DNA from: an uncultured Alphaproteobacteria bacterium
GTDB taxonomy: Bacteria > Pseudomonadota > Alphaproteobacteria > HIMB59 > GCA-002718135
Reading direction: 5' to 3'
DNA: 64,000 bases
NCBI GenBank assembly: GCA_902628835.1
Contig: CACOPD010000001.1
Span: forward strand, 1 to 64,000
The position numbers and the translations under genes were made by a program. Position 1 is the stretch's first letter; each line of letters begins with the position of its first letter. Of the stretch, positions 1 through 13,079 are shown piece by piece. Below the pieces are notes generated by a model, which was given only the letters and a program-made list of their open reading frames with translations, was not told the DNA's origin and ran no database searches.

Positions 1-294
1 TTTAAGACCTACTCCAATAGGAGCCATTGGTTTTACTGACCATAGTGCTAAAAATATTTGTTTGTGATCAAACTTATTATATTTCTCATAATTTATGTAA
101 CCCTGCAAACCTACTAATTCATTTTTAATGGTAGCTAAAAAAAAACTAAAATGATGATTATTATTTTTATATTGAAAGTTAAAAATATTATTTTTTTTTG
201 AAAATATATGGTTTTTAGACCAAAATTTATTTATGTATTTTTTTAGTTTTAAATTAAATGAGGTATTATAATTTTGTATTTTTATTTCTGACAT
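1..294 (-). CDS. GNAT-like acyltransferase, N-terminal fragment (runs off the window)
   Basis: The first 98 residues of a protein whose end lies beyond base 1. The start is the ATG at 294, ten bases before the end of the dioxygenase gene, so it is the last visible gene of the long minus-strand operon. The visible part has a polar, Asn/Lys-rich stretch, then a strand pattern (SFFLATIKNELVGLQGYI) followed by IFLALWSVKP and GVGLK. This resembles the start of acetyltransferase-like proteins often found in polysaccharide clusters. The family call rests on recall of that pattern; the acetyl-CoA binding region is not in the window, so the function is uncertain. Confidence 0.55.
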   Translation of the reverse strand, partial: MSEIKIQNYNTSFNLKLKKYINKFWSKNHIFSKKNNIFNFQYKNNNHHFSFFLATIKNELVGLQGYINYEKYNKFDHKQIFLALWSVKPMAPIGVGLK

Positions 295-303
295 GCAGAA
301 ATA

Positions 304-1200
304 TTAATTTCTAGTAGTAAAGCCATAACTAAAATTAGCTTTTAATGTTTGTATATTTACTATCTCTCTTTTTTCACCTTTAGAATATGCACGTCTTCCG
401 TGCATAAACCTCTTATTATCCAACATTATCAAATCATTTTTTTCCCATTCAATATCATATGTATATAAATCAGATATTTCTTTAACTTCTTGCATGATAT
501 CTTCTGGTATTTTATCGCCATTCATTAAAGTATGAGATTTAATTTGGGGCTCATTATCAAAAATAATTTGTAAATGATTTGAAAAACATAGTTGATTTTC
601 AATTCTTGATTCGCTAACTGCAAATCTAGTCTGCTTTACATTTAAAATACCTTTATCAAAATTAATTATACCATTACTTGAGCCAAGACTTGTCATTGGC
701 CAAGTTTTTTTTCCTTTTTTATTTTTATTTTTTATAACTTCAAACTCCAAATTATAAATAATAGGATTAGATAAGAAGAAATCTCTTGTACTATTTGATA
801 ACTTTTTCCAAAGCATAATACCATCACAGACAGTAGTCTTGCCTCCTTTTAAAGAGGGTGTTATGCAGTAAAACCATAATATTTCAGGCCAACTTGGAGA
901 GTAACTAGCTTCACTATGAAGTGGCATCTCATGAAAACCTAAATCAACAGTATTAATATTTTTATTGTCTGATACTTTTTTTCTTCTTGGTGCATCAGAA
1001 GCATAAGTTTTTGTAAATTGATCTGTAAATTTCATTAAATTACCAGTATCAAAATTAAAATTTCTGAAAATTATGATTCCTTTTTGTTCAAAAAGTTTGA
1101 TAACATCATTGATATCAAGTTCGTCGAATTTTTTTTTACTTTGATTTACAATTAATAGACCATTATTAAAAAATTTATCACTTATGGGAGAATTTTTCAT
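304..1200 (-). CDS. TauD/TfdA-family Fe(II)/2-oxoglutarate dioxygenase
   Basis: A 298-residue protein, a normal length for the family, which hydroxylates or oxidatively cleaves small molecules using Fe(II), O2 and 2-oxoglutarate. Visible metal ligands are the HSE triad start (His95, Glu97) in MPLHSEASYSP and the distal His267 in FMHGRRAYS; Arg278 is placed to bind the 2-oxoglutarate carboxylate. Using Glu rather than Asp in the HxD/E motif is known in clavaminate-synthase-like members. The gene abuts the ACP gene by a single shared base, which suggests the substrate may be carried on that ACP or be the final product of this operon. The exact substrate cannot be told. Confidence 0.85.
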   Translation of the reverse strand: MKNSPISDKFFNNGLLIVNQSKKKFDELDINDVIKLFEQKGIIIFRNFNFDTGNLMKFTDQFTKTYASDAPRRKKVSDNKNINTVDLGFHEMPLHSEASYSPSWPEILWFYCITPSLKGGKTTVCDGIMLWKKLSNSTRDFFLSNPIIYNLEFEVIKNKNKKGKKTWPMTSLGSSNGIINFDKGILNVKQTRFAVSESRIENQLCFSNHLQIIFDNEPQIKSHTLMNGDKIPEDIMQEVKEISDLYTYDIEWEKNDLIMLDNKRFMHGRRAYSKGEKREIVNIQTLKANFSYGFTTRN

Positions 1201-1448
1201 TAATCAAATTTTACAGAATATTTTTTTAAAATTTCAATGCCCTTGTTGAAAGAACTAAAATCAATAATATCATCAGTATCAATGGAAATATCAAATTTTT
1301 CTTCTAAAGCCGCTATTAATGTCATATGGCCAATTGAATCCCATTCTGGAATTCCATTATATTCAAGGGTTTCAGAAATTGTTTTTTTATCTACTTCAAA
1401 AGCTTCAGCAAAGCAATCTGTATAAATATTCAAATTATCTGAGCTCAT
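1200..1448 (-). CDS. Stand-alone acyl carrier protein
   Basis: An 82-residue acidic helical protein with the phosphopantetheine attachment motif WDSIGHM (Ser38) and the following helix LIAALEEKFDISID. Holo-ACP carries an acyl or aminoacyl group as a thioester. The motif differs from that of housekeeping fatty-acid ACP (usually ADSLDTVE), so this is a dedicated carrier. It overlaps the transketolase C-terminal gene by 14 nt upstream and touches the dioxygenase downstream. In context it probably carries the acid activated by the ligase encoded at 7748-9145, which the LuxE/LuxC pair could then reduce. The partner assignment is inference from the operon. Confidence 0.9.
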   Translation of the reverse strand: MSSDNLNIYTDCFAEAFEVDKKTISETLEYNGIPEWDSIGHMTLIAALEEKFDISIDTDDIIDFSSFNKGIEILKKYSVKFD

Positions 1449-2400
1449 TAATTATCCTTTCAGCTATTGAATTGCTATCTAATTTAAACATATTAATCAT
1501 ATAATCATAATTACCAGAATTTGAATAAGAATCAGGTATACTAAAAGGAATAATTTTTTTATTGATACCATTTTTTGCAATAGTTTCAGCAATTGTTGAA
1601 AATAATCCACCTATGATAGAATGTTCCTCTACGGTAAATATTAGTTTATAATTTTTGATTATATTTACTAAATTATTCTCGTTAATTGGTTTTAATGTGT
1701 GAAAGTTTAGTAATGACGGATAAATTTTTTTTTCTCTAAGAAAATTTACTGCTTCTTTTGCATTATGCACCATTTGTCCATTTGAAATTATAAGAATATC
1801 CTCACCTTGAATAATTGATACAGGCATACCTATTTGAAATTCGTAATCTTCTTCATAGATTTTAGGTCTATTTGCACCACCTGTTAATCGAATATAAGAA
1901 GATTGATTGTTTTTAAGGCAAGCTATTGTAGCCTTGGCTGTTTCCAAAGTATCTGATGGAGAAATAATATTTATATTAGGAATTGATCTAATTACTGACA
2001 AATCTTCAATACAACAATGTGTATATCCTAAAGGTCCTAAGACTAAACCACTTGCAAGACCCACCATTGTTACTTTATTTTTCATATATCCTAAGTTTAC
2101 TTTTATTTGCTCTAAACATCTCATAGTTTGAAAAGGTGCGAATGATGTAGTAACAACATTAAAATTTTCGCTAGCAAGTCCAGCAGCTATATTCATCATA
2201 TTTTGCTCTGCAATTCCACAATCAATATAATTGTTAGGAAAATTTTTTCTAAATCTATCTAATCCAGCAGAAGTTGAAACGTCTGCTGTCAGAACCATTA
2301 AATCATCAATTTCGGATACTAAATCATAAAGGACTAAACCAAAACTAGCCCTCTGACCAATCATAGCCAGTTTATTAATAGTTTTTTTATCAAAGATCAT
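1435..2400 (-). CDS. Transketolase, C-terminal subunit (pyrimidine-binding and C-terminal domains)
   Basis: A 321-residue protein matching the second half of transketolase. Glu65 in IDCGIAEQNMMNIAAGLA is the conserved glutamate that activates the aminopyrimidine of thiamine diphosphate. The rest follows the family order: a pyrimidine-binding domain (about 15-180) then the C-terminal domain (about 190-315). It overlaps the N-terminal subunit gene by 4 nt (ATGA), so the two are translationally coupled and form one enzyme. Split transketolases occur widely, both for sugar metabolism and inside secondary-metabolite or polysaccharide clusters. The position between an ACP and an SDR suggests a specialised ketol transfer rather than the pentose phosphate pathway. 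Confidence 0.88.
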   Translation of the reverse strand: MIFDKKTINKLAMIGQRASFGLVLYDLVSEIDDLMVLTADVSTSAGLDRFRKNFPNNYIDCGIAEQNMMNIAAGLASENFNVVTTSFAPFQTMRCLEQIKVNLGYMKNKVTMVGLASGLVLGPLGYTHCCIEDLSVIRSIPNINIISPSDTLETAKATIACLKNNQSSYIRLTGGANRPKIYEEDYEFQIGMPVSIIQGEDILIISNGQMVHNAKEAVNFLREKKIYPSLLNFHTLKPINENNLVNIIKNYKLIFTVEEHSIIGGLFSTIAETIAKNGINKKIIPFSIPDSYSNSGNYDYMINMFKLDSNSIAERIINELR

Positions 2401-3236
2401 TTATCTAATTCTTCAATTGCATCATCATAAGTTTTTTGTGTCAAAATTCTATGGTGCCATTCATTATTATCCTCAGAAAACGAAAAGCCTTTACCTTTTA
2501 CTGTATTTGCGATTATCAACTTAGGCTTGGTGTTTTCAAATTTTTTATTGAACGCATCTAATAATTCATTAATATCATGACCATTAACTTCAACAATATT
2601 CCATCCAAAAGATAACCATTTATTACTTAAATTTTTTAAATCCATTATTTCTTCATTTGAACCAGTTTGTTGAAATTTATTATGATCAATTATAGCTATT
2701 AAATTATAGAGTTCTCTATTTGGAGCAAACATAGCAGCTTCCCAAACTGAGCCTTCATTACATTCTCCATCTCCTAATAAAACAAATACTTTTTTATCAA
2801 ATTTTTTTTTTAATATAGATAGTGCCAAACCAATACCAAGGCCTAAACCCATTCCTAAACTCCCAGTAGAAAATTCAATACCATACTTTCTATTTATAAC
2901 TGGATGACCAAGTAAAAAACTATCATTTTGTTCAAATGTATCTAGAACATTTTTTTCAAAAAAACCAAGTTCACTCAAAGCAGCATAATAAGCCAAACAA
3001 CCATGCCCCTTACTCAAAATGAATCTGTGCCTATCTCCAATATTTTCATTATTTTTATAAAAATCTAAATATTCTGAAAAAATACAGGATATAATTTCAA
3101 CAGTAGAAAGGCTGCCTCCAAAATGAGAACTGTTTTCTTTAGCATTTAATGCAGTTCTTAAAATATCTTTCCTAATTTGTTTAGCAAAACTTTTAATTAA
3201 TGAATGTTTTGATATTTCTTTATTTATTTCATTCAC
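2397..3236 (-). CDS. Transketolase, N-terminal subunit (thiamine diphosphate binding)
   Basis: A 279-residue protein corresponding to the diphosphate-binding half of transketolase. It has the SKGHGCLAYYAAL motif (about 76-87) and the thiamine-diphosphate/Mg motif beginning GDGECN at 155 and ending near Asn186 in IIDHNKFQQTG. With the next gene it would transfer a two-carbon ketol unit from a donor ketose to an aldehyde. It shares one base with the preceding SDR gene. The operon also encodes a LuxC-type aldehyde-forming reductase, so the acceptor could be an aldehyde made in the same pathway; that link is inferred. Confidence 0.9.
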   Translation of the reverse strand: MNEINKEISKHSLIKSFAKQIRKDILRTALNAKENSSHFGGSLSTVEIISCIFSEYLDFYKNNENIGDRHRFILSKGHGCLAYYAALSELGFFEKNVLDTFEQNDSFLLGHPVINRKYGIEFSTGSLGMGLGLGIGLALSILKKKFDKKVFVLLGDGECNEGSVWEAAMFAPNRELYNLIAIIDHNKFQQTGSNEEIMDLKNLSNKWLSFGWNIVEVNGHDINELLDAFNKKFENTKPKLIIANTVKGKGFSFSEDNNEWHHRILTQKTYDDAIEELDK

Positions 3237-3961
3237 TATAAACCACCATCTACTCTTATTATTTGCCCAGAAATATGTTTTGACATTTTACTTGCAAGAA
3301 AAAGACATGTATTTGCTATATCATGAGTATCTGCAATTCTATTCAAGTATGAATTATTTTTTACCTCATTAATAATATCAGTCGAATGATTATTTTTCAT
3401 CATATCGGTATTTGTTAGTCCAGGAGCAATCCCATTAACTCTTATATTAATTTTTCCAAATTCTTTAGCTAGTATTTTTGTTGAATGCATTAATGCAGAT
3501 TTTGAAGCAGAGTATGCTAATCTACCTGGATGAACATCTATTGCAGAATTTGATAAAATATTAATTATAGAAGGATATTCAGACTTTATCATTTTTTTTA
3601 CTATAAGTTGAGTAATCAAAAGTTGAGAAAAAAAATTAATCTGAAATAAATTTTTTATATCATTTATTTTTGTCATTTGAAATATGCTAGTAGAAATATT
3701 AGCGGCATTGTTTACTAATATATCTATGACATTATTGGTGTTTGTAATAGTTTTGATAGCATCTGATATTTGGCCCTCATTATTAAGGTCAAATTCAATA
3801 AATTTTAACTTATCTGTGTTATCAAATGACAAGAAGTCATCTTTATTATATTTTCTGACACAAGCCCATACGTTTGCATCATTTTCTAGAAAAATTTTTG
3901 TGATTTCTCTTCCAATACCCTTGTTTGCTCCAGTTACAATAGCAGTCTTATTATGAAGCAT
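3236..3961 (-). CDS. Short-chain dehydrogenase/reductase
   Basis: A 241-residue classical SDR. It has the cofactor motif TGANKGIG (10-17), the NNAA motif (84-87), a catalytic serine near 137-139 and the YSASK pair (Tyr150, Lys154). It ends in the usual IRVDGGL. Family members reduce ketones or oxidise alcohols with NAD(P)H. The start lies 2 bases after the radical SAM stop and the stop overlaps the transketolase start by one base. It might act as a ketoacyl-ACP reductase with the FabZ-like dehydratase, or reduce the ketol made by the transketolase. The sequence does not decide between these. Confidence 0.88.
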   Translation of the reverse strand: MLHNKTAIVTGANKGIGREITKIFLENDANVWACVRKYNKDDFLSFDNTDKLKFIEFDLNNEGQISDAIKTITNTNNVIDILVNNAANISTSIFQMTKINDIKNLFQINFFSQLLITQLIVKKMIKSEYPSIINILSNSAIDVHPGRLAYSASKSALMHSTKILAKEFGKINIRVNGIAPGLTNTDMMKNNHSTDIINEVKNNSYLNRIADTHDIANTCLFLASKMSKHISGQIIRVDGGL

Positions 3962-3963
3962 GA

Positions 3964-5049
3964 TTAATAATGAATTTTTACATCACTTTTTTTCAAAAAA
4001 TCTTCTTCAGGGAATATATCTGAAGCTTTAGCTGGATGAAAGATAGTCTGGCCTGTGTTAGATAGATATTTAGACACAAATTCTTTATTTTCTCCTGCTA
4101 AACAAACTGGGCTATGCTCATTAAAATGTTTTATGGAAAAACCATATTCTACTATTTCTTTTAGATGTTGTTCTATAACGTTACCAATTTTTATGTGTAC
4201 ATAAGGACACGCTAACACATCTCCAATTGGTGTAATATAAAGTCTATTTACTGTAGTGCATCCTATTGATTTTTCATGAGATTTGTCAAAGGGATTCCAA
4301 ATATTTCTAATTAAATTTTTATAATCTTTTCTTAATTTATACAAATGTTCTCTATCTTTATCATCTAACATTATTTCTGACATTTGAGACCACATTCCTG
4401 CAGGTACTGCTACGTTTATTAGTGTTTTATAATTATTATCTTTTGAGTATTTAAGTAATTCCTCGAAAGCCGGGTCAAACGCATTATAGTGACCAACAGT
4501 TATATTTAAATAAGGGTCCATACCAGCATTTTGAACATGCTTTAGAGCCTCTATTGCTTTTCTCCATGAATCTTTTCTACCTCTAATTTCATCATGTGTA
4601 GCTTCATTCATACTATCTACACTCACAGATACTCTGCTAACGTGCGCATCAGCAAGTTGCTTTGCCATCTTTTCGTCAAGCTTAAATCCATTTGTGGTTA
4701 AGTATAGATAAAATCTCTCTGGTTTAATTGCCTTTAAAGATTCAAATAGTATATCAGGTCTTAATAGAAGCTCTCCTCCCTGTAAATCAAATTCAAAATA
4801 ACCAAGCTCATCAGCTTCATCAGCAACTCTTTCTAAAACATCTAATGGAAGTCTGTCTTTAACATGGTCACCCTTTGGTGAATTTGTAAAACAATACTTG
4901 CATCTTAGATTACACGCATTATTTAAGTTTAGATCTATCCCTCTTGTTTTTGTGCCAACTTGCCCGTTATTTTTATTGACGTAACTATAAAATCTTCTTA
5001 ACTTTTCAACAAGTCGTGGTTTTTTCAAAAGAGATGAATGTATTGGCAT
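3964..5049 (-). CDS. Radical SAM protein with SPASM-like C-terminal region
   Basis: A 361-residue radical SAM enzyme. Cys46, Cys50 and Cys53 in NACNLRCKYCF form the CxxxCxxC site for the 4Fe-4S cluster that cleaves S-adenosylmethionine. FDLQGGELLLRPD is the usual GGE motif. C-terminal cysteines (IGCTTVNRLYI, LACPYVH, SPVCLAG) suggest a second, auxiliary cluster of the SPASM/twitch type. The protein is clearly less rich in Lys/Asn/Ile than its neighbours and its DNA looks less AT-rich, hinting at stronger conservation or a different origin. It sits between the FabZ-like and SDR genes. Substrate unknown; epimerisation, dehydrogenation or C-C bond chemistry on the pathway intermediate are all possible. 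Confidence 0.88.
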   Translation of the reverse strand: MPIHSSLLKKPRLVEKLRRFYSYVNKNNGQVGTKTRGIDLNLNNACNLRCKYCFTNSPKGDHVKDRLPLDVLERVADEADELGYFEFDLQGGELLLRPDILFESLKAIKPERFYLYLTTNGFKLDEKMAKQLADAHVSRVSVSVDSMNEATHDEIRGRKDSWRKAIEALKHVQNAGMDPYLNITVGHYNAFDPAFEELLKYSKDNNYKTLINVAVPAGMWSQMSEIMLDDKDREHLYKLRKDYKNLIRNIWNPFDKSHEKSIGCTTVNRLYITPIGDVLACPYVHIKIGNVIEQHLKEIVEYGFSIKHFNEHSPVCLAGENKEFVSKYLSNTGQTIFHPAKASDIFPEEDFLKKSDVKIHY

Positions 5050-5052
5050 AAA

Positions 5053-5502
5053 TTATTTTTTAAATCTATTAATTTCTTCAGGTAATATCAAAGTAAAACT
5101 GGCTTTGCAAGCAAGTTCGTTGTTGACGAATCCTTCACCAGTAAAGTTCCCAACACCTCTTTTCCAATAGTTTAGTGTGCTTTTTAAAACTAATCTATCA
5201 CCTTTAATAATTTTTTTTAGAAATTTTAATTTATCTGCAGAAGTTAAATAAAGAATTTTGCCACTTAATCCAGGTAAAGTTAGAATCGCTAAGGATCCCA
5301 TTTGAACCAAAGCCTCAATTTGTAACATTCCAGGCATATTTGGATCATTAACCCAATGAACTTTAAAAAACCATTCATCATCTTTTAAATCTTTGTATCC
5401 TTCTGAATATTTTCCAGGAATTACATTTGTAGCATAATCCATCATTAAATATGGAGGTTTGTTTTGTTGAACTTTAAGTATTTGATTAAAATCTAAATGC
5501 AT
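5053..5502 (-). CDS. FabZ-like hot-dog 3-hydroxyacyl-ACP dehydratase
   Basis: A 149-residue protein of FabA/FabZ length. The motif HWVNDPNMPGMLQIEALVQ matches FabZ's HFPGxPxMPGVLxxEAxAQ, with catalytic His49 and Glu63 both present. Such enzymes remove water from 3-hydroxyacyl-ACP. The variant motif and the operon position show it is not the housekeeping fabZ of the lpx cluster. It lies 5 bases from the LuxC-like gene and 3 bases from the radical SAM gene. In context it would act on the acyl chain bound to the cluster's own ACP, or on a related dehydration step. Confidence 0.82.
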   Translation of the reverse strand: MHLDFNQILKVQQNKPPYLMMDYATNVIPGKYSEGYKDLKDDEWFFKVHWVNDPNMPGMLQIEALVQMGSLAILTLPGLSGKILYLTSADKLKFLKKIIKGDRLVLKSTLNYWKRGVGNFTGEGFVNNELACKASFTLILPEEINRFKK

Positions 5503-5507
5503 ATAAT

Positions 5508-6704
5508 TTAATAATGATCTATTTTTCTTGTCATCGACAAAATTAAATCATAACCATCCCAGTTTTGAGTAAATTGATGTGCATTTCCAATAGGAACTAT
5601 TCTGTCTACTGCATTATCTTTATGTAACCTCAATTGATTAAAAACTTTTTCATGATCGATTCCAAAATATATTAGTGTTTGTACTTTATCATCTAAAAAT
5701 TTATTTAGAAATTCAATTTTTTTCAAATTATATTCATAAAAATAACCCCATTTACCTCTAAGAGAATTAAAATATTTAGGATCAATTTTATTTAATAAAA
5801 TATTATATGTAAAAGAATTTAAGTTTAATTTGTTGTTTATTTTTTTCTCAATTATATCATCATAATAATTTGATAGTTTATCAATAGTAGCAATATCAGG
5901 CTGATTGTAATTATTTTTTGCGTAATCAGAAACATAATTCCAAAATTTAAATCTTGATTTTTTTAAGTTATTTCCAATCCAAAAAATAACATGGGGAGAT
6001 GAACAAGCGTTTTGATCAAGAAAATATGCATCGTTATAAAATTTTTGAGCAATCTTTTTCTTCTCCTTTTCAGGAAGACTATTATATTTAGAACTATTAA
6101 TGATTGCACATGAAATTCTATCTGCAAATGTTATTTCTCTTGAACGGGGTTTCAGTTTATAATTTCTAATTGAGTTAACAGTACTATCTCCACCCCAAAT
6201 TATTCTTAAATCAGCAATTTTAGATAATTTTTCTGTATAAATAGCATTTTTATCATAACTTATAAAATAAGAGTTATTCTTTATTTTAAAAAATTTTTTA
6301 TCTCTAAATATTTTAGAAATTTCATTTAATAATATTTCAATTGAAACATAATTTTTTGAAGGTAGACGCACTATATTAATATTTCCAGTAATTAATCCAA
6401 AAAAAAATGAATAAAAAAAGTTTAATGGTGTATTTGAAGGGCATAAATGAAATAGTATTCCAATTCTTGCTCTAGTTTTAATTAAACTTTCATATTCTAA
6501 GATTATTTTTTTTAAATTTGAAGGCCTTAACCAAAAGTTTAAATAAGCCAAATCTGGATGAATATTGATTTTTTTATTTTTTTTTAAATTCTGATTTAAT
6601 TTATAAAAGAATTCAAAAATTAAATTATTAAATGGAATAAGCGTATCAATGTTATTTATTTTTTTGAAAATTTTATCTATTTGTGAATTTTTATAAATCA
6701 GCAT
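5508..6704 (-). CDS. LuxC-like acyl-CoA/acyl-ACP reductase
   Basis: A 398-residue protein of the LuxC acyl-CoA reductase family, which turns an activated acyl group into an aldehyde with NADPH. The likely catalytic cysteine is Cys234 in DQNACSSPHVIFW, the family's characteristic motif. RIGILFHLCPSNTPLNFFYSF (about 80-100) and GLITGNINIVRLPS match the conserved N-terminal region. It is somewhat shorter than bioluminescence LuxC (about 480 residues). Its start overlaps the LuxE-like gene by 14 nt, as expected for a reductase/synthetase complex. No luxA/luxB is present, so the aldehyde is a biosynthetic intermediate, not a luciferase substrate. Confidence 0.85.
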   Translation of the reverse strand: MLIYKNSQIDKIFKKINNIDTLIPFNNLIFEFFYKLNQNLKKNKKINIHPDLAYLNFWLRPSNLKKIILEYESLIKTRARIGILFHLCPSNTPLNFFYSFFFGLITGNINIVRLPSKNYVSIEILLNEISKIFRDKKFFKIKNNSYFISYDKNAIYTEKLSKIADLRIIWGGDSTVNSIRNYKLKPRSREITFADRISCAIINSSKYNSLPEKEKKKIAQKFYNDAYFLDQNACSSPHVIFWIGNNLKKSRFKFWNYVSDYAKNNYNQPDIATIDKLSNYYDDIIEKKINNKLNLNSFTYNILLNKIDPKYFNSLRGKWGYFYEYNLKKIEFLNKFLDDKVQTLIYFGIDHEKVFNQLRLHKDNAVDRIVPIGNAHQFTQNWDGYDLILSMTRKIDHY

Positions 6705-7755
6705 TGCTACAACCTCTTAATTCTGCACTAGGTATTCGTCCATATACCTTAAAATATTTTCCTGCCCTTTTACACTTGCAGTTATCAACACCAAAAATTT
6801 CTCCTACATCTTCAGTTAATATACTGTTACCTGGATAACTAGTGGGAACATTTGATAATAATTGAATTATACCTCTGTTCTTATATTTTATATTTTCAAG
6901 TTTATTATTTCTAATAATTATATCAGAATAAATTGACGTATGGTAGTATCCATATTCACACTCAAAGAATATAGACCCAGTTTGCTCTATCATACCATAA
7001 TAATTTATTATTTTATTAATACCTGTTAATTTTTTTATTTCTTTTTTAAATAAAGAATTATCAACTGACAAATCTTCAAGCTTCTTCCAACCGCCTCCAT
7101 GTAGTAGAATAATGTTTTTATGATAGTCATTAAGTTTAATTTTTTTTATCTTTAAATAATTTATTAGTTTATCCCATACTAAAAATGTAAATCCAAAAAG
7201 AAGAATTTTTTGATGTTTATATTTTTCAAGTAATTCAATTAATAAATCTAAATTTAAATTTAATTTATCATCTAATAAAAAATAAGTTTTACTAGAGAAA
7301 ATAGAAAATCCTAAAATTGCAGCTTTTCTTGCTGAATAATCTAACTTATCTTTATATATTTTATTAGAATCTATTACCAACATAGGCATTCTTTGTTTTC
7401 CCAAATGATTTGAGCCAATGTTATGCAATACTTCAATTTGTTTTTTTGCATTTTGTTGATCTAAATAGATTTTTGAAACATTTCCAGATGTTCCTGATGA
7501 TGTAAGTATCTTATATATATTTTTTTTTTGAATACTAAAAAGATCATATTTTTTAAATAATCTAACTGGTATGAACGGTAAATTTTCAAATTTTGTATTA
7601 TTATTAAAATGAGATAAATTCTTGATGATGTTTTTATATTCATTACATTTATTTGAATGCTTTATAATTAAATCAACTATTTGCTTCTTGAGAACTTCAT
7701 CTTTTTCATAAGATAAAAAATTATAAACGTTGAAATTTTTATTTAATTTAACCAT
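6691..7755 (-). CDS. LuxE-like acyl-protein synthetase
   Basis: A 354-residue protein of the LuxE acyl-protein synthetase family, an ANL-type adenylating enzyme. It carries the phosphate-loop motif ILTSSGTSGNVSK (around residues 83-95) and the family's C-terminal ending PSAELRGCSN. That cysteine is the probable acyl acceptor by analogy with LuxE. In bioluminescence, LuxE adenylates a fatty acid and passes it to LuxC. Here it overlaps the preceding ligase gene by 8 nt and the LuxC-like gene by 14 nt. Having both this and a second adenylating enzyme in the operon suggests two separate acid-activation steps or division of labour between loading ACP and reduction. Confidence 0.82.
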   Translation of the reverse strand: MVKLNKNFNVYNFLSYEKDEVLKKQIVDLIIKHSNKCNEYKNIIKNLSHFNNNTKFENLPFIPVRLFKKYDLFSIQKKNIYKILTSSGTSGNVSKIYLDQQNAKKQIEVLHNIGSNHLGKQRMPMLVIDSNKIYKDKLDYSARKAAILGFSIFSSKTYFLLDDKLNLNLDLLIELLEKYKHQKILLFGFTFLVWDKLINYLKIKKIKLNDYHKNIILLHGGGWKKLEDLSVDNSLFKKEIKKLTGINKIINYYGMIEQTGSIFFECEYGYYHTSIYSDIIIRNNKLENIKYKNRGIIQLLSNVPTSYPGNSILTEDVGEIFGVDNCKCKRAGKYFKVYGRIPSAELRGCSNADL

Positions 7756-9145
7756 AACTTTTACTTAAAAGTTTATAATCGATTTTTCCTGATTCTAATT
7801 TGGGAAATTTTTTTATTGATACAATTTTAAAAAAAAAAGGATTAATTTTAACTTTATTTATCATATACTGTTTAATATTTAATTTTTGTGAAATTTTTCT
7901 TGTTAAGATTACGATATTATTGTCATTACCAATTAAAATAATATCATTAAATTCAAAGTTTAGTTTTTTTTCTAAATCGTCAAGGTTTATTCTTATGCCT
8001 GAACATTTTACTATTCTCTTTATTCTACCAATAATATAATAATTATTATTTTTCTTGTATGCAAGATCTCCTGTTTTGAGTTTTTTTATTTTACTGACTT
8101 TATTCAAATCATTTTTATTTTCACAATATCCAATAAATACATTATCTCCAGAATATACTAATTCACCTACATTATGATTTTTATTACTTGAATACATTCG
8201 TTGATTTATTAACTCAAATTTTCCGCCTGATATTGGTCTACCAATGCTACCATAATTATTTTTTAATTCTGATAGTCTAACATAAGATATTCTTGGTGAT
8301 GCTTCTGTTTGACCATACATAATGTAAAATCTAATTTTTTTTCTTAAAAATTGATTATGAAAATATTTTTGATTTTCCATTCCTAGATGGCCGCCTGCGA
8401 CTGTACAAAATTTCAAATTCTTAAAATTGAAGATATTAATTTTAAATTTTTTAATAAATTCAAAAACAAGAGGAACAGAAGAAAAATTTGTAATTTTTTT
8501 GTGTTTCTTAAAAGTATCCCAAAATTCTTTTTGAGTAGGTGATGAATGTTCCAAAATTAATGATGCGCCATTTGATATGTGAGTATTAAGAATTGACAAG
8601 CCATATGAGTAATTAAATGGTAAAGAAAAAATACTTTGATCTAATTTATTTAATTTAAGATAACTGGTTATTGAATTTGTATTACTATTTAAATTTTTGT
8701 AAGACAACATAACAAATTTAGAACTTCCTGTACTACCTGACGTTGGAATGATTAATGCTAAATCATCAGAAAGTTTTTTTGTTTGATATTTAGATTCATA
8801 CAGGTGATAATCTTCATAATTTTTAACTTTTCTAAATTTATTTTCATTTAACATTTGTACATTTCTTCCAAAAACATAATCAGGCTCATAGATTTTAATA
8901 AATTCTTGTAGAAATTGATCATCAATATTTTTATCAATTAATATAGGTACAATTTTATATTTAATTGATGTTAAATAAACTAAGATCGAATAATAAGAAT
9001 TATCACATATCATCAATAAAAGTGATCTAGGCTTTAAATAATCTTTTAATTTTTCAATATCTTGAAAAAGTTCTGAGTAATAAATTTTTTTATTTTTTTC
9101 TATGAATGCAATTCTTTTTTTATATTTATTAATATAATCAAACAT
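7748..9145 (-). CDS. AMP-dependent acyl/aryl ligase (ANL superfamily)
   Basis: A 465-residue adenylate-forming enzyme. Motifs in order are IIPTSGSTGSSKFV (A3 loop, about 133-146), YGQTEASPR (A5), TGDLAYKK (A7), GRIKRIVKCSGIRI (A8) and the C-terminal LESGKIDYK with the A10 lysine. It would adenylate a carboxylic acid and load it on coenzyme A or the cluster's ACP. It is the first gene of the biosynthetic operon: its ATG is only 10 nt from the 3 prime CCA end of the initiator tRNA gene, so its message probably begins at, or near, the processed tRNA end. It is a little shorter than typical acyl-CoA synthetases (about 500-550 residues). Confidence 0.87.
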   Translation of the reverse strand: MFDYINKYKKRIAFIEKNKKIYYSELFQDIEKLKDYLKPRSLLLMICDNSYYSILVYLTSIKYKIVPILIDKNIDDQFLQEFIKIYEPDYVFGRNVQMLNENKFRKVKNYEDYHLYESKYQTKKLSDDLALIIPTSGSTGSSKFVMLSYKNLNSNTNSITSYLKLNKLDQSIFSLPFNYSYGLSILNTHISNGASLILEHSSPTQKEFWDTFKKHKKITNFSSVPLVFEFIKKFKINIFNFKNLKFCTVAGGHLGMENQKYFHNQFLRKKIRFYIMYGQTEASPRISYVRLSELKNNYGSIGRPISGGKFELINQRMYSSNKNHNVGELVYSGDNVFIGYCENKNDLNKVSKIKKLKTGDLAYKKNNNYYIIGRIKRIVKCSGIRINLDDLEKKLNFEFNDIILIGNDNNIVILTRKISQKLNIKQYMINKVKINPFFFKIVSIKKFPKLESGKIDYKLLSKSYG

Positions 9146-9155
9146 TTCTAAGGGT

Positions 9156-9232
<77 letters not shown>

Positions 9233-11376: not shown

Positions 11377-11453
11377 TGGTAGCGGAGGAGGGATTTGAAC
11401 CCCCGACATCACGAATATGAGCCGTGCGCTCTGACCAACTGAGCTACTCCGCC
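11377..11453 (-). tRNA. tRNA-Met (CAU), probable elongator
   Basis: A 77-nt cloverleaf on the minus strand with anticodon CAU, T arm GGGGGTTCAAATCCC and encoded CCA. Acceptor strand GGCGGAG pairs with CTCCGCT (G1-U72), so it lacks the mismatched end of an initiator. CAU also occurs in tRNA-Ile whose C34 becomes lysidine; the overall sequence looks more like elongator Met. It lies 18 nt before the exporter start and 39 nt after the sulfatase-fold gene stop, on the same strand. Confidence 0.9.
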
Positions 11454-11492: not shown

Positions 11493-13079
11493 TTAATTTA
11501 TATTTATAATATTTTCATGCTTATAACCTTCTACCAAACCATACTTAGGGCTGTTTTCATAAAAAGAATCATAAAATACATCTTCTTTGTAATTTATATT
11601 ATAATCATAAGCACAATTTAAACCAAAAATTACAGAATTAATATTTGATTTTGGTTTAGAATACTTTGCAAAACAATCTTCAGGTGCATAAATTAGATTA
11701 AAAATACTTGATTTTAAATTAATTAAATCTTTTTTTGATAAATTATAATTTGAAAAAATAGATTGAGGTAATTGTCCATGGTCGGCTTGAAAAATAATTA
11801 TTGGGTCCTTATCAATTGTATTAATATATTTCGTGAAATTTTCTATCTCTTTTAACACACAAAGATATGAATTCTTATAGCCTAGATAAACATCCGTATA
11901 TTTTTTTGAATTACAATTACTATCAACTTCATAAGGTTGATGTGGTGATAAATGATGAATAAAAACAAATTTATTTTTTTTATCAAGCCCAAAATTTTGA
12001 GTATAGTTTATAAAATTATATAAAGAACGCTGAGATGATTTTAGATATTCTCTTTTTTCAAATAAATAATTTTTGACTTTATAAAAAGGAGTTGATTGTA
12101 ATACTGTATTAGAGATATTTTCTAATATGGAAAAATAATATGAAGTATTTTTGTTTAGACAAATCCAAGGATACTTTTGTTCATCCAAACAACGCATCCA
12201 AATATTTCCAACCCAATAAAAATCGATATTTTCTTTTTGTAAAATATTTATTAACGGTATTTTTAGGGGATTTTTTAATAAAAAATTTGGAAAAAAATTA
12301 TCTCTATTATTATATTTTGTAGATTTTTCATCAATTGGAAAATCAATTAAAAAAATTGAAGATAGAGTTAAATAAGTTGTGGCGTAATTTGAATAAGATT
12401 TATTTATATAATTAAGATTTTGTTTTTCTAAGCGATCTATAAAAAGATTAGTTTCATAGTCAAAATATGTAGAGAAATTTTCTAAGCTTATCATCCCATC
12501 GAGAATTACGAAATAAATATTTTTTATATTTTTTTCTGAACTATTTGCTCTTTTGTTTTGGTAATTCAAATAATTATTAATTTCTATATTTTGAAAAAAA
12601 TTTATTTCATTTAAATATTTGAAATTAAAATATAAGTTTGAAATAACATTAATTAAGATATAAAATGTAAGAATTCTGAAAAAAATTTTATATTTTATCA
12701 GATGATAGTTAAATACATAAAGATTAATTATAATTAATATAAACACTAAAATTAAAGCAAACGAATCAATAGATGTTCCGCTAACAATTTTAAGATTTAC
12801 TAAAACTTTAATAAAAAAATTAAAAAAGAAAAAAGATAAAAATACAATTATAATATTTGTAAAAAAAAAATTTATATTTACTTTGAAAAGAAATTTTAAA
12901 AAAAAAATTACTACAAAATATACTAAGATTAAAAATAAAAATATGATTAAATATGTTAATAGATAAGTATATATTTCATTAATTGTAAACTGTCGAAGAT
13001 TTGTATCCTTAAAAAAAAATAAAAATGGTAATGTAAATAATCCTAGACCAACAATGATATCTTTTATTATTGATTTCAT
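11493..13079 (-). CDS. Membrane-anchored sulfatase/alkaline-phosphatase-fold transferase
   Basis: A 528-residue protein with about five N-terminal membrane helices (residues 1-150) and a C-terminal extracytoplasmic domain of the sulfatase fold. VILDGMIS (near 190) gives a metal-binding Asp, HHLSPHQPYE (near 376) supplies histidines, and FQADHGQLP (near 431) holds the Asp-His metal pair. The layout matches phosphoethanolamine transferases and lipoteichoic-acid synthases, which move a phosphoalcohol onto lipid or glycan. Next to a CDP-glycerol-type transferase and cytidylyltransferase, a phosphoalcohol transfer to the surface polymer is plausible. It could instead be a true sulfatase; the nucleophile (Thr or Ser/Cys) is not obvious. 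Confidence 0.75.
   Translation of the reverse strand: MKSIIKDIIVGLGLFTLPFLFFFKDTNLRQFTINEIYTYLLTYLIIFLFLILVYFVVIFFLKFLFKVNINFFFTNIIIVFLSFFFFNFFIKVLVNLKIVSGTSIDSFALILVFILIIINLYVFNYHLIKYKIFFRILTFYILINVISNLYFNFKYLNEINFFQNIEINNYLNYQNKRANSSEKNIKNIYFVILDGMISLENFSTYFDYETNLFIDRLEKQNLNYINKSYSNYATTYLTLSSIFLIDFPIDEKSTKYNNRDNFFPNFLLKNPLKIPLINILQKENIDFYWVGNIWMRCLDEQKYPWICLNKNTSYYFSILENISNTVLQSTPFYKVKNYLFEKREYLKSSQRSLYNFINYTQNFGLDKKNKFVFIHHLSPHQPYEVDSNCNSKKYTDVYLGYKNSYLCVLKEIENFTKYINTIDKDPIIIFQADHGQLPQSIFSNYNLSKKDLINLKSSIFNLIYAPEDCFAKYSKPKSNINSVIFGLNCAYDYNINYKEDVFYDSFYENSPKYGLVEGYKHENIININ

Follow-up and report, generated by a model that had tools for sequence, protein, structure and literature searches.

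An operon combining LuxE/LuxC-like genes with a split transketolase and a radical SAM protein in an uncultured alphaproteobacterium: a candidate route to an acyl group for a surface glycan

Introduction

What does a bacterium make with an operon in which LuxE- and LuxC-like genes of acid reduction stand beside a split transketolase, a radical S-adenosylmethionine (SAM) protein, an acyl carrier protein (ACP) and a dioxygenase? Such an operon opens the window analyzed here (the whole stretch of 64,000 nucleotides [nt], positions 1 to 64,000 of contig CACOPD010000001.1, assembly GCA_902628835.1, from an uncultured alphaproteobacterium of the HIMB59 lineage). Our answer, which we regard as evenly balanced between right and wrong, is that the operon supplies a surface glycan with an unusual acyl group, short and probably polyhydroxylated, or with a small sugar-like acid. 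A first-pass annotation of the sequence had proposed a dedicated pathway for the cell surface; synteny, co-occurrence and the neighbors in relatives support this proposal.

Results

Read on the minus strand from position 9145 to position 1, the operon consists of eleven open reading frames (ORFs), ten complete and one cut by the start of the contig, spaced by −14 to +9 nt (overlaps of at most 14 nt, gaps of at most 9 nt), which bears out the earlier description of one tight run of eleven genes. Judged by their sequences, the genes look free of degradation. Because base 1 of the window is also base 1 of a 407-kb contig, the last gene is cut short, leaving 98 amino acids, and the operon may exceed eleven genes. 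Products were assigned to families by Pfam and NCBIfam profile searches, which upheld ten of the labels given in the first-pass annotation; the eleventh, GNAT-like, rests on a motif only in the truncated gene.

Three adjacent genes, all on the minus strand like the rest of the operon, are predicted to activate and reduce an acid: an AMP-dependent acid ligase (7748..9145; its top NCBIfam hit, ligase_PEP_1 with E = 9.9e-39, falls short of the family cut-off), a LuxE-like acyl-protein synthetase (6691..7755; PF04443, E = 1.3e-49) and a LuxC-like acyl reductase (5508..6704; PF05893, E = 8.3e-24). The ACP gene lies further downstream (1200..1448; PF00550). The C-terminal RGC cysteine of LuxE is invariant (15 rows), and its PDB match is the LuxE of 7xc6; the candidate active-site cysteine of LuxC is conserved in the alignment rows shown, and the carrier serine of the ACP in 22/22 of the rows shown. 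Families and residues together make this activation/reduction front end a well-supported prediction. With 72.9 bits for LuxE and 36.3 bits for LuxC, against long-chain equivalog cut-offs of 550 and 750, respectively, neither protein reaches the equivalog level.

Behind LuxC follow a FabZ-like hot-dog dehydratase (5053..5502; PF07977), a radical SAM protein with a SPASM/twitch-type C terminus (3964..5049; PF04055, PF13186) and a FabG-like oxidoreductase of the short-chain dehydrogenase/reductase (SDR) family (3236..3961; PF13561, E = 1e-48). The dehydratase keeps its catalytic His and Glu positions, and the SDR its YxxxK motif, in the rows shown. Cysteines C46, C50 and C53 (CX3CX2C) and C264, C281 and C316 of the radical SAM protein are invariant in 30 rows and give it both the radical SAM motif and the auxiliary-cluster cysteines that characterize the SPASM/twitch superfamily. 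Its structure model predicts a fold resembling SkfB, viperin, BlsE and MoaA, and its family comprises 731 clustered homologues at E ≤ 1e-30, for which no assigned substrate was found in Pfam or NCBIfam.

The split transketolase consists of an N chain with the thiamine diphosphate (ThDP)-binding domain (TktN, 2397..3236; PF00456) and a C chain with the Pyr and C-terminal domains (TktC, 1435..2400; PF02779/PF02780). The main motifs of such a two-chain enzyme are kept, among them the GDGE and His motifs of TktN; the best PDB matches are 6yak for TktN and 6yaj, the split transketolase of Carboxydothermus, for TktC. The operon continues beyond the ACP gene with a TauD/TfdA-family Fe(II)/2-oxoglutarate dioxygenase (304..1200; PF02668, E = 3.1e-32), whose HxE and distal His ligands are kept in the 5 rows shown, and ends with the truncated acyl/acetyltransferase gene (1..294), labeled by motif inspection. 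No ketosynthase, LuxD or luciferase was found among the eleven genes, and their products matched no exporter or peptide-synthesis family of Pfam or NCBIfam; an iron alcohol dehydrogenase is likewise missing from the eleven products of this operon, which is itself cut by the contig start.

The first-pass annotation had staked its proposal on co-occurrence of the genes elsewhere, and genome G056 (locus L007) repeats all eleven in the same order. The ten genes compared between the two (all but the truncated one) are 49 to 90% identical. The eleventh gene is cut by a contig end in G056 as well; neither copy matches Pfam or NCBIfam, and among the ORFs searched the only homologue lies in L007 (89 bits; L009 duplicates this record). 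Gene order also agrees from the ligase to the ACP gene in L008 and from the ligase to TktC in L011, and in each of the eight loci compared with the window, the radical SAM gene is more strongly conserved than any other gene compared (53 to 90% identity). This conservation of gene order is far beyond chance. The set of ligase, LuxE, LuxC, FabZ, SDR and transketolase is also found in Pelagibacteraceae, Myxococcota, Gammaproteobacteria, Rhizobium and cyanobacteria.

Within the host order, 162 genomes were surveyed, with LuxE searched by protein query and PF04443 and the radical SAM protein at E ≤ 1e-60. LuxE gave matches in 3/162 genomes, and the radical SAM protein of the operon in exactly these three. 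G111 is a fourth carrier, with a GMC oxidoreductase version whose contig stops short of LuxE. In locus L129, found through its transketolase and not through LuxE, genes for ACP, FabZ, GMC, SDR and ligase lie beside the transketolase. TktN alone is far more common (69/162 genomes at E ≤ 1e-40).

For a wider comparison, the best 80 of 94 LuxE loci from a scan of species genomes, with L007 and L008 added and L009 removed as a duplicate of L007, gave 81 classified loci. To these came 24 further loci, 20 of them from genomes of the phylum and class, out of 30 with a match. L182 repeats L025; including the window, the total is 105 distinct loci, many closely related to each other. All except L129 were selected by LuxE, and absence of a gene refers to the sequence retrieved, at most about 10 kb on either side.

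Twenty of these loci bear a transketolase, and in them the radical SAM protein (nine loci: the window, L007, L008, L011, L013, L014, L016, L078 and L088) and a GMC oxidoreductase (ten: L015, L018, L020, L048, L071, L087, L129, L134, L166 and L169) never occur together; one locus has neither. L087 is cut before TktC. TauD occurs in 5/9 radical SAM loci and in 0 GMC loci. L180 encodes the radical SAM protein with no transketolase on its 8.7-kb contig; a single 27-bit radical SAM match in L176 was not counted. Four loci (L010, L012, L056 and L181) carry an ALS-like ThDP enzyme and NeuB, with no transketolase, GMC or radical SAM gene; in the available parts of the literature consulted on related units, we found no description of the chemistry of this cassette. 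The remaining 80 loci lack transketolase, GMC, ALS and the radical SAM protein of the operon; the complete set of ACP, SDR, ligase, LuxE and LuxC genes is found in 73/80, and 8/80 have NeuB nearby. FabZ is present in 24/25 loci that have a transketolase, this radical SAM protein or the ALS-like enzyme (missing in L167) and in 1/80 of the others (L086, 41 bits).

Further arrangements were seen beside these types. On a plasmid of Ponticoccus alexandrii (L133), an ACP-SDR-ligase-LuxE set is accompanied by an inverted LuxC behind two hypothetical genes. L132 (G051:C37) is a different split-transketolase cluster with a weak 2-oxoglutarate-Fe(II) oxygenase match and small genes lacking an assignment, and no LuxE was seen on its 6-kb contig. 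In a sister family of the same order (L130, L131), the split transketolase lies in apparent sugar-uptake operons, with kinase-like and ABC genes recognized by eye.

Trees were built by a quick method with support from the Shimodaira-Hasegawa-like approximate likelihood ratio test (SH-aLRT), using 16 (TktC), 17 (TktN) and 17 (SDR) rows from transketolase loci. Those of TktC, TktN and SDR split the radical SAM from the GMC side, with supports of 99, 99 and 97, respectively. In the FabZ tree the radical SAM type is grouped with a support of 88, and the GMC label needs three changes. The LuxE, ligase and LuxC trees show no clean split by type, yet the labels are not random on them. Because the back-end genes split by type and the front-end genes do not, the back-end cassette seems to descend as one block across phyla, joined to front ends that vary. 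Such an exchange is displayed directly by L056 and L071, which have similar flanks (77% identity in ACP, 87% in FabZ, 68% in the ligase, 66% in LuxE and 66% in LuxC; 44% in an AAC(3)-like gene) and a different middle: the ALS-like ThDP enzyme and NeuB in L056 stand where L071 has GMC-SDR-TktN-TktC.

The neighbors in relatives point to surface-glycan acylation. In L008, a pseudaminic acid synthase (PseI, above cut-off) and a PseG-like protein (below cut-off) are encoded beside the operon, and in L078 an LpxD-like acyl-ACP N-acyltransferase (below cut-off) adjoins TauD. An MBOAT gene neighbors L011, an AAC(3)-like acyltransferase gene L015, and flippase and nucleotide sugar dehydrogenase genes L010; L135, a locus of the simple type on a Deinococcus plasmid, lies with glycosyltransferase and sugar transferase genes for exopolysaccharide (EPS). 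In the window, an ABC transporter and CDP-glycerol phosphotransferase-like and cytidylyltransferase-like proteins are encoded beyond the operon. The host genome has its NeuB on a separate 5.8-kb contig (L232, G000 contig C21), and a NeuB-family nonulosonic acid of the host is a possible acceptor sugar for the operon product. The other ORFs of L232 are, by eye, of the NeuC, NeuD and dehydratase types.

The promoter-side border of the operon is a tRNA-Met gene (9156..9232, minus strand), the second of a tandem pair parted by inserted genes; the first lies at 11377..11453 (minus strand). Ten relatives were opened behind IscA for comparison. In L217 and L221, IscA is followed by tRNA-Met, tRNA-Met, 16S, tRNA-Ile, tRNA-Ala, 23S and 5S rRNA, with no large insert before the rRNA genes; in L220 and L224, tRNA-Ile/Ala come further on. 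No tRNA-Ile/Ala was found in the stretch opened for L216, L218, L219, L222 and L225, and the stretch for L223 was short. In L007 the operon lies directly behind the two tRNA-Met genes, and in the window the two are separated by additional genes. Taken together, these orders place the operon in a variable region after the tandem tRNA-Met genes, presumably between them and the rRNA operon; the contigs of the window and of L007 both break within it. The tandem tRNA-Met site, flanked by the suf and rRNA operons, resembles a hot spot at which surface-glycan genes are inserted. Past the first tRNA-Met gene, positions 11493-13079 encode a 528-amino-acid protein with, by eye, membrane segments followed by a sulfatase/phosphoglycerol-transferase-like C-terminal half and with no Pfam match at E ≤ 0.1.

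Discussion

The synthesis of a short acyl group for a surface glycan, as suggested at the outset, would take five steps. The ligase would activate a small carboxylic acid and load it onto the dedicated ACP, after which the LuxE cysteine would take over the acyl group and LuxE and LuxC would reduce it to an aldehyde. The two-chain transketolase might then move a C2 ketol from a sugar phosphate onto this aldehyde. In a fourth step, the SDR and the radical SAM protein (a GMC oxidoreductase in the sister loci) would tune the oxidation state, FabZ would dehydrate a hydroxyacyl intermediate and TauD would hydroxylate. A transferase would finally move the finished ACP-bound group onto an amino sugar of the envelope. 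We infer the order of these steps, as well as the use of the LuxC aldehyde as transketolase acceptor: LuxC yields an aldehyde, transketolase and NeuB use one, and the transketolase and ALS/NeuB cassettes share the same front end. A redox role of the radical SAM protein is suggested by its alternation with a GMC oxidoreductase, and transfer to an amino sugar by the neighbors in relatives.

Several observations weigh against this route. In the acceptor site, the transketolase of the operon has Leu at E. coli position 469, but so do 26/27 further split transketolases of the host order (L103, one of the 27, is part of the GMC-type locus L129), so that the change does not single out the operon set. 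The structure model of the radical SAM protein does not pin down its reaction. L167 combines a transketolase with two SDRs and has no FabZ, radical SAM or GMC gene, and the ACP gene, present in 19/20 transketolase loci, was not seen in L013. Since nearly all loci were selected by LuxE, its presence in them proves nothing. No transferase could be assigned with certainty in the window, and the GMC-type set of Rhizobium anhuiense T24 (L134) adjoins a gene for a TonB siderophore receptor. Finally, the trees of the front half (ligase, LuxE, LuxC) and of the back half (SDR, transketolase, radical SAM/GMC) differ, and the steps are therefore perhaps not directly consecutive.

That last point also fits a different, rather doubtful explanation, in which two parallel routes share one operon. 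Ligase, ACP, LuxE and LuxC would give an aldehyde or alcohol, as has been proposed for the tetronate of Vibrio cholerae O1, and transketolase, SDR and radical SAM protein would give an independent keto acid or sugar, to be taken up by the ACP part at a later stage, the transketolase never meeting the LuxC aldehyde. The front end does work without a transketolase, as its five genes are complete in 73 of the 80 LuxE loci that lack transketolase, ALS and radical SAM genes; in the available sections of the respective papers, the simple unit is described for Aeromonas (PMC7874193), and an Actinoplanes EPS cluster has a split transketolase with no LuxE or carrier gene named (PMC13390465). What speaks for an acceptor supplied by LuxC instead is that the alternative ALS/NeuB cassette, joined to the same front end, also acts on aldehydes or keto acids, and that FabZ goes with the carbon-carbon cassettes and not with the simple unit.

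The remaining two explanations concern the product, and we consider both improbable. Sets of ACP, radical SAM and dioxygenase genes are common in small-molecule clusters and, with the siderophore receptor gene beside the R. anhuiense set, would suit a diffusible signal, siderophore-like compound or antibiotic; the pseudaminate, flippase, EPS, LpxD-like, MBOAT and AAC(3)-like neighbors of several loci and the lack of any Pfam or NCBIfam match to an exporter or peptide-synthesis family among the eleven products argue for a surface ornament instead. Production of long-chain fatty aldehydes or alcohols to build a lipid-bearing sugar ("liposugar") would agree with the long-chain activity of named LuxE/LuxC and FabZ/FabG-like family members, and such a component is suggested by the Aeromonas authors in the available part of their paper (PMC7874193). 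It would have to operate with eleven genes that include no ketosynthase, with LuxE and LuxC scores far below the long-chain equivalog cut-offs, and with a transketolase, which is foreign to fatty-acid chemistry.

The proposed acyl-group route may be one case of a more general scheme, offered as a tentative possibility: lengthening of a carrier-bound acid without a ketosynthase, from carboxylate to acyl-ACP to aldehyde, then through exchangeable carbon-carbon cassettes (either transketolase adding a C2 ketol, followed by SDR and radical SAM or GMC, or NeuB and the ALS-like ThDP enzyme adding C3, possibly followed by loss of CO2), and back to the ACP with FabZ dehydration. If true, acyl groups would be assembled from the carbon units of sugar metabolism and not from malonyl-ACP, in a system spread between phyla by cassette exchange. 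In the available sections of the reports, the LuxE/LuxC genes present in many surface-glycan loci are described as fatty-acid genes (PMC7874193, PMC4875605). A front end with exchangeable carbon-carbon-forming cassettes predicts that the LuxC aldehyde is the electrophile, and the alternation of radical SAM and GMC genes predicts an oxidizing role for this radical SAM family.

Among known systems, the LuxC-LuxE fatty-acid reductase of bioluminescence (PDB 7xc6) has LuxE homology, the C-terminal cysteine and the LuxC family in common with the window; unlike it, the window proteins lie far below the long-chain cut-offs, and neither LuxD nor luciferase is among the eleven genes. The tetronate pathway of V. 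cholerae O1, whose product is 3-deoxy-L-glycero-tetronate, also includes LuxE/LuxC-like genes and an iron-containing alcohol dehydrogenase; we know of no transketolase, FabZ or radical SAM protein in it. No iron alcohol dehydrogenase is seen among the eleven genes in the window, where the contig start cuts the operon. The available sections on that pathway describe the RfbK carrier and the RfbL/WbeL ligase (PMC12208996, PMC3441752), a ligase and carrier for an acyl group on an O-antigen amino sugar, to which the likeness of the window is at family level; Morona 1995 is a further reference on the pathway.

Enterobacterial flagellin glycosylation islands share the Acp, LuxE, LuxC, CaiC and FabG families with the window and in one strain also encode FabZ, with no transketolase mentioned in the available sections (PMC4875605). 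The wps-2 EPS cluster of Actinoplanes missouriensis has split transketolase genes like the window; LuxE, an acyl carrier and an acyl-CoA reductase are absent from the main text as far as available (PMC13390465). The best solved relative of both window chains is the Carboxydothermus enzyme (PDB 6yaj/6yak), the only transketolase of that organism, which keeps E-D-G where the operon chain has P-L-G; according to the available text, it is a two-chain enzyme active on several aldehydes (PMC7661550).

Targeted literature searches brought up no paper in which a LuxE/LuxC unit is combined with FabZ, a split transketolase, an SDR and either a radical SAM or a GMC gene. The first-pass annotation knew of no described pathway with the set, and within these searches this stands for the full combination with FabZ, split transketolase and radical SAM/GMC; it falls for the simple core, which is already known, ACP-SDR-ligase-LuxE-LuxC being published for Aeromonas (PMC7874193). 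In the available parts of that paper, the group II flagellar glycosylation island carries genes for ACP, 3-oxoacyl-ACP reductase, AMP synthetase, LuxE and LuxC beside pse genes, so that, as in the window, all five families lie in one operon, there tied to nonulosonic-acid and surface-glycan genes. Compared with the Aeromonas unit as given there, the window keeps the order ligase-LuxE-LuxC, has SDR and ACP downstream, after FabZ and radical SAM, and adds FabZ, the split transketolase, the radical SAM protein, TauD and the transferase.

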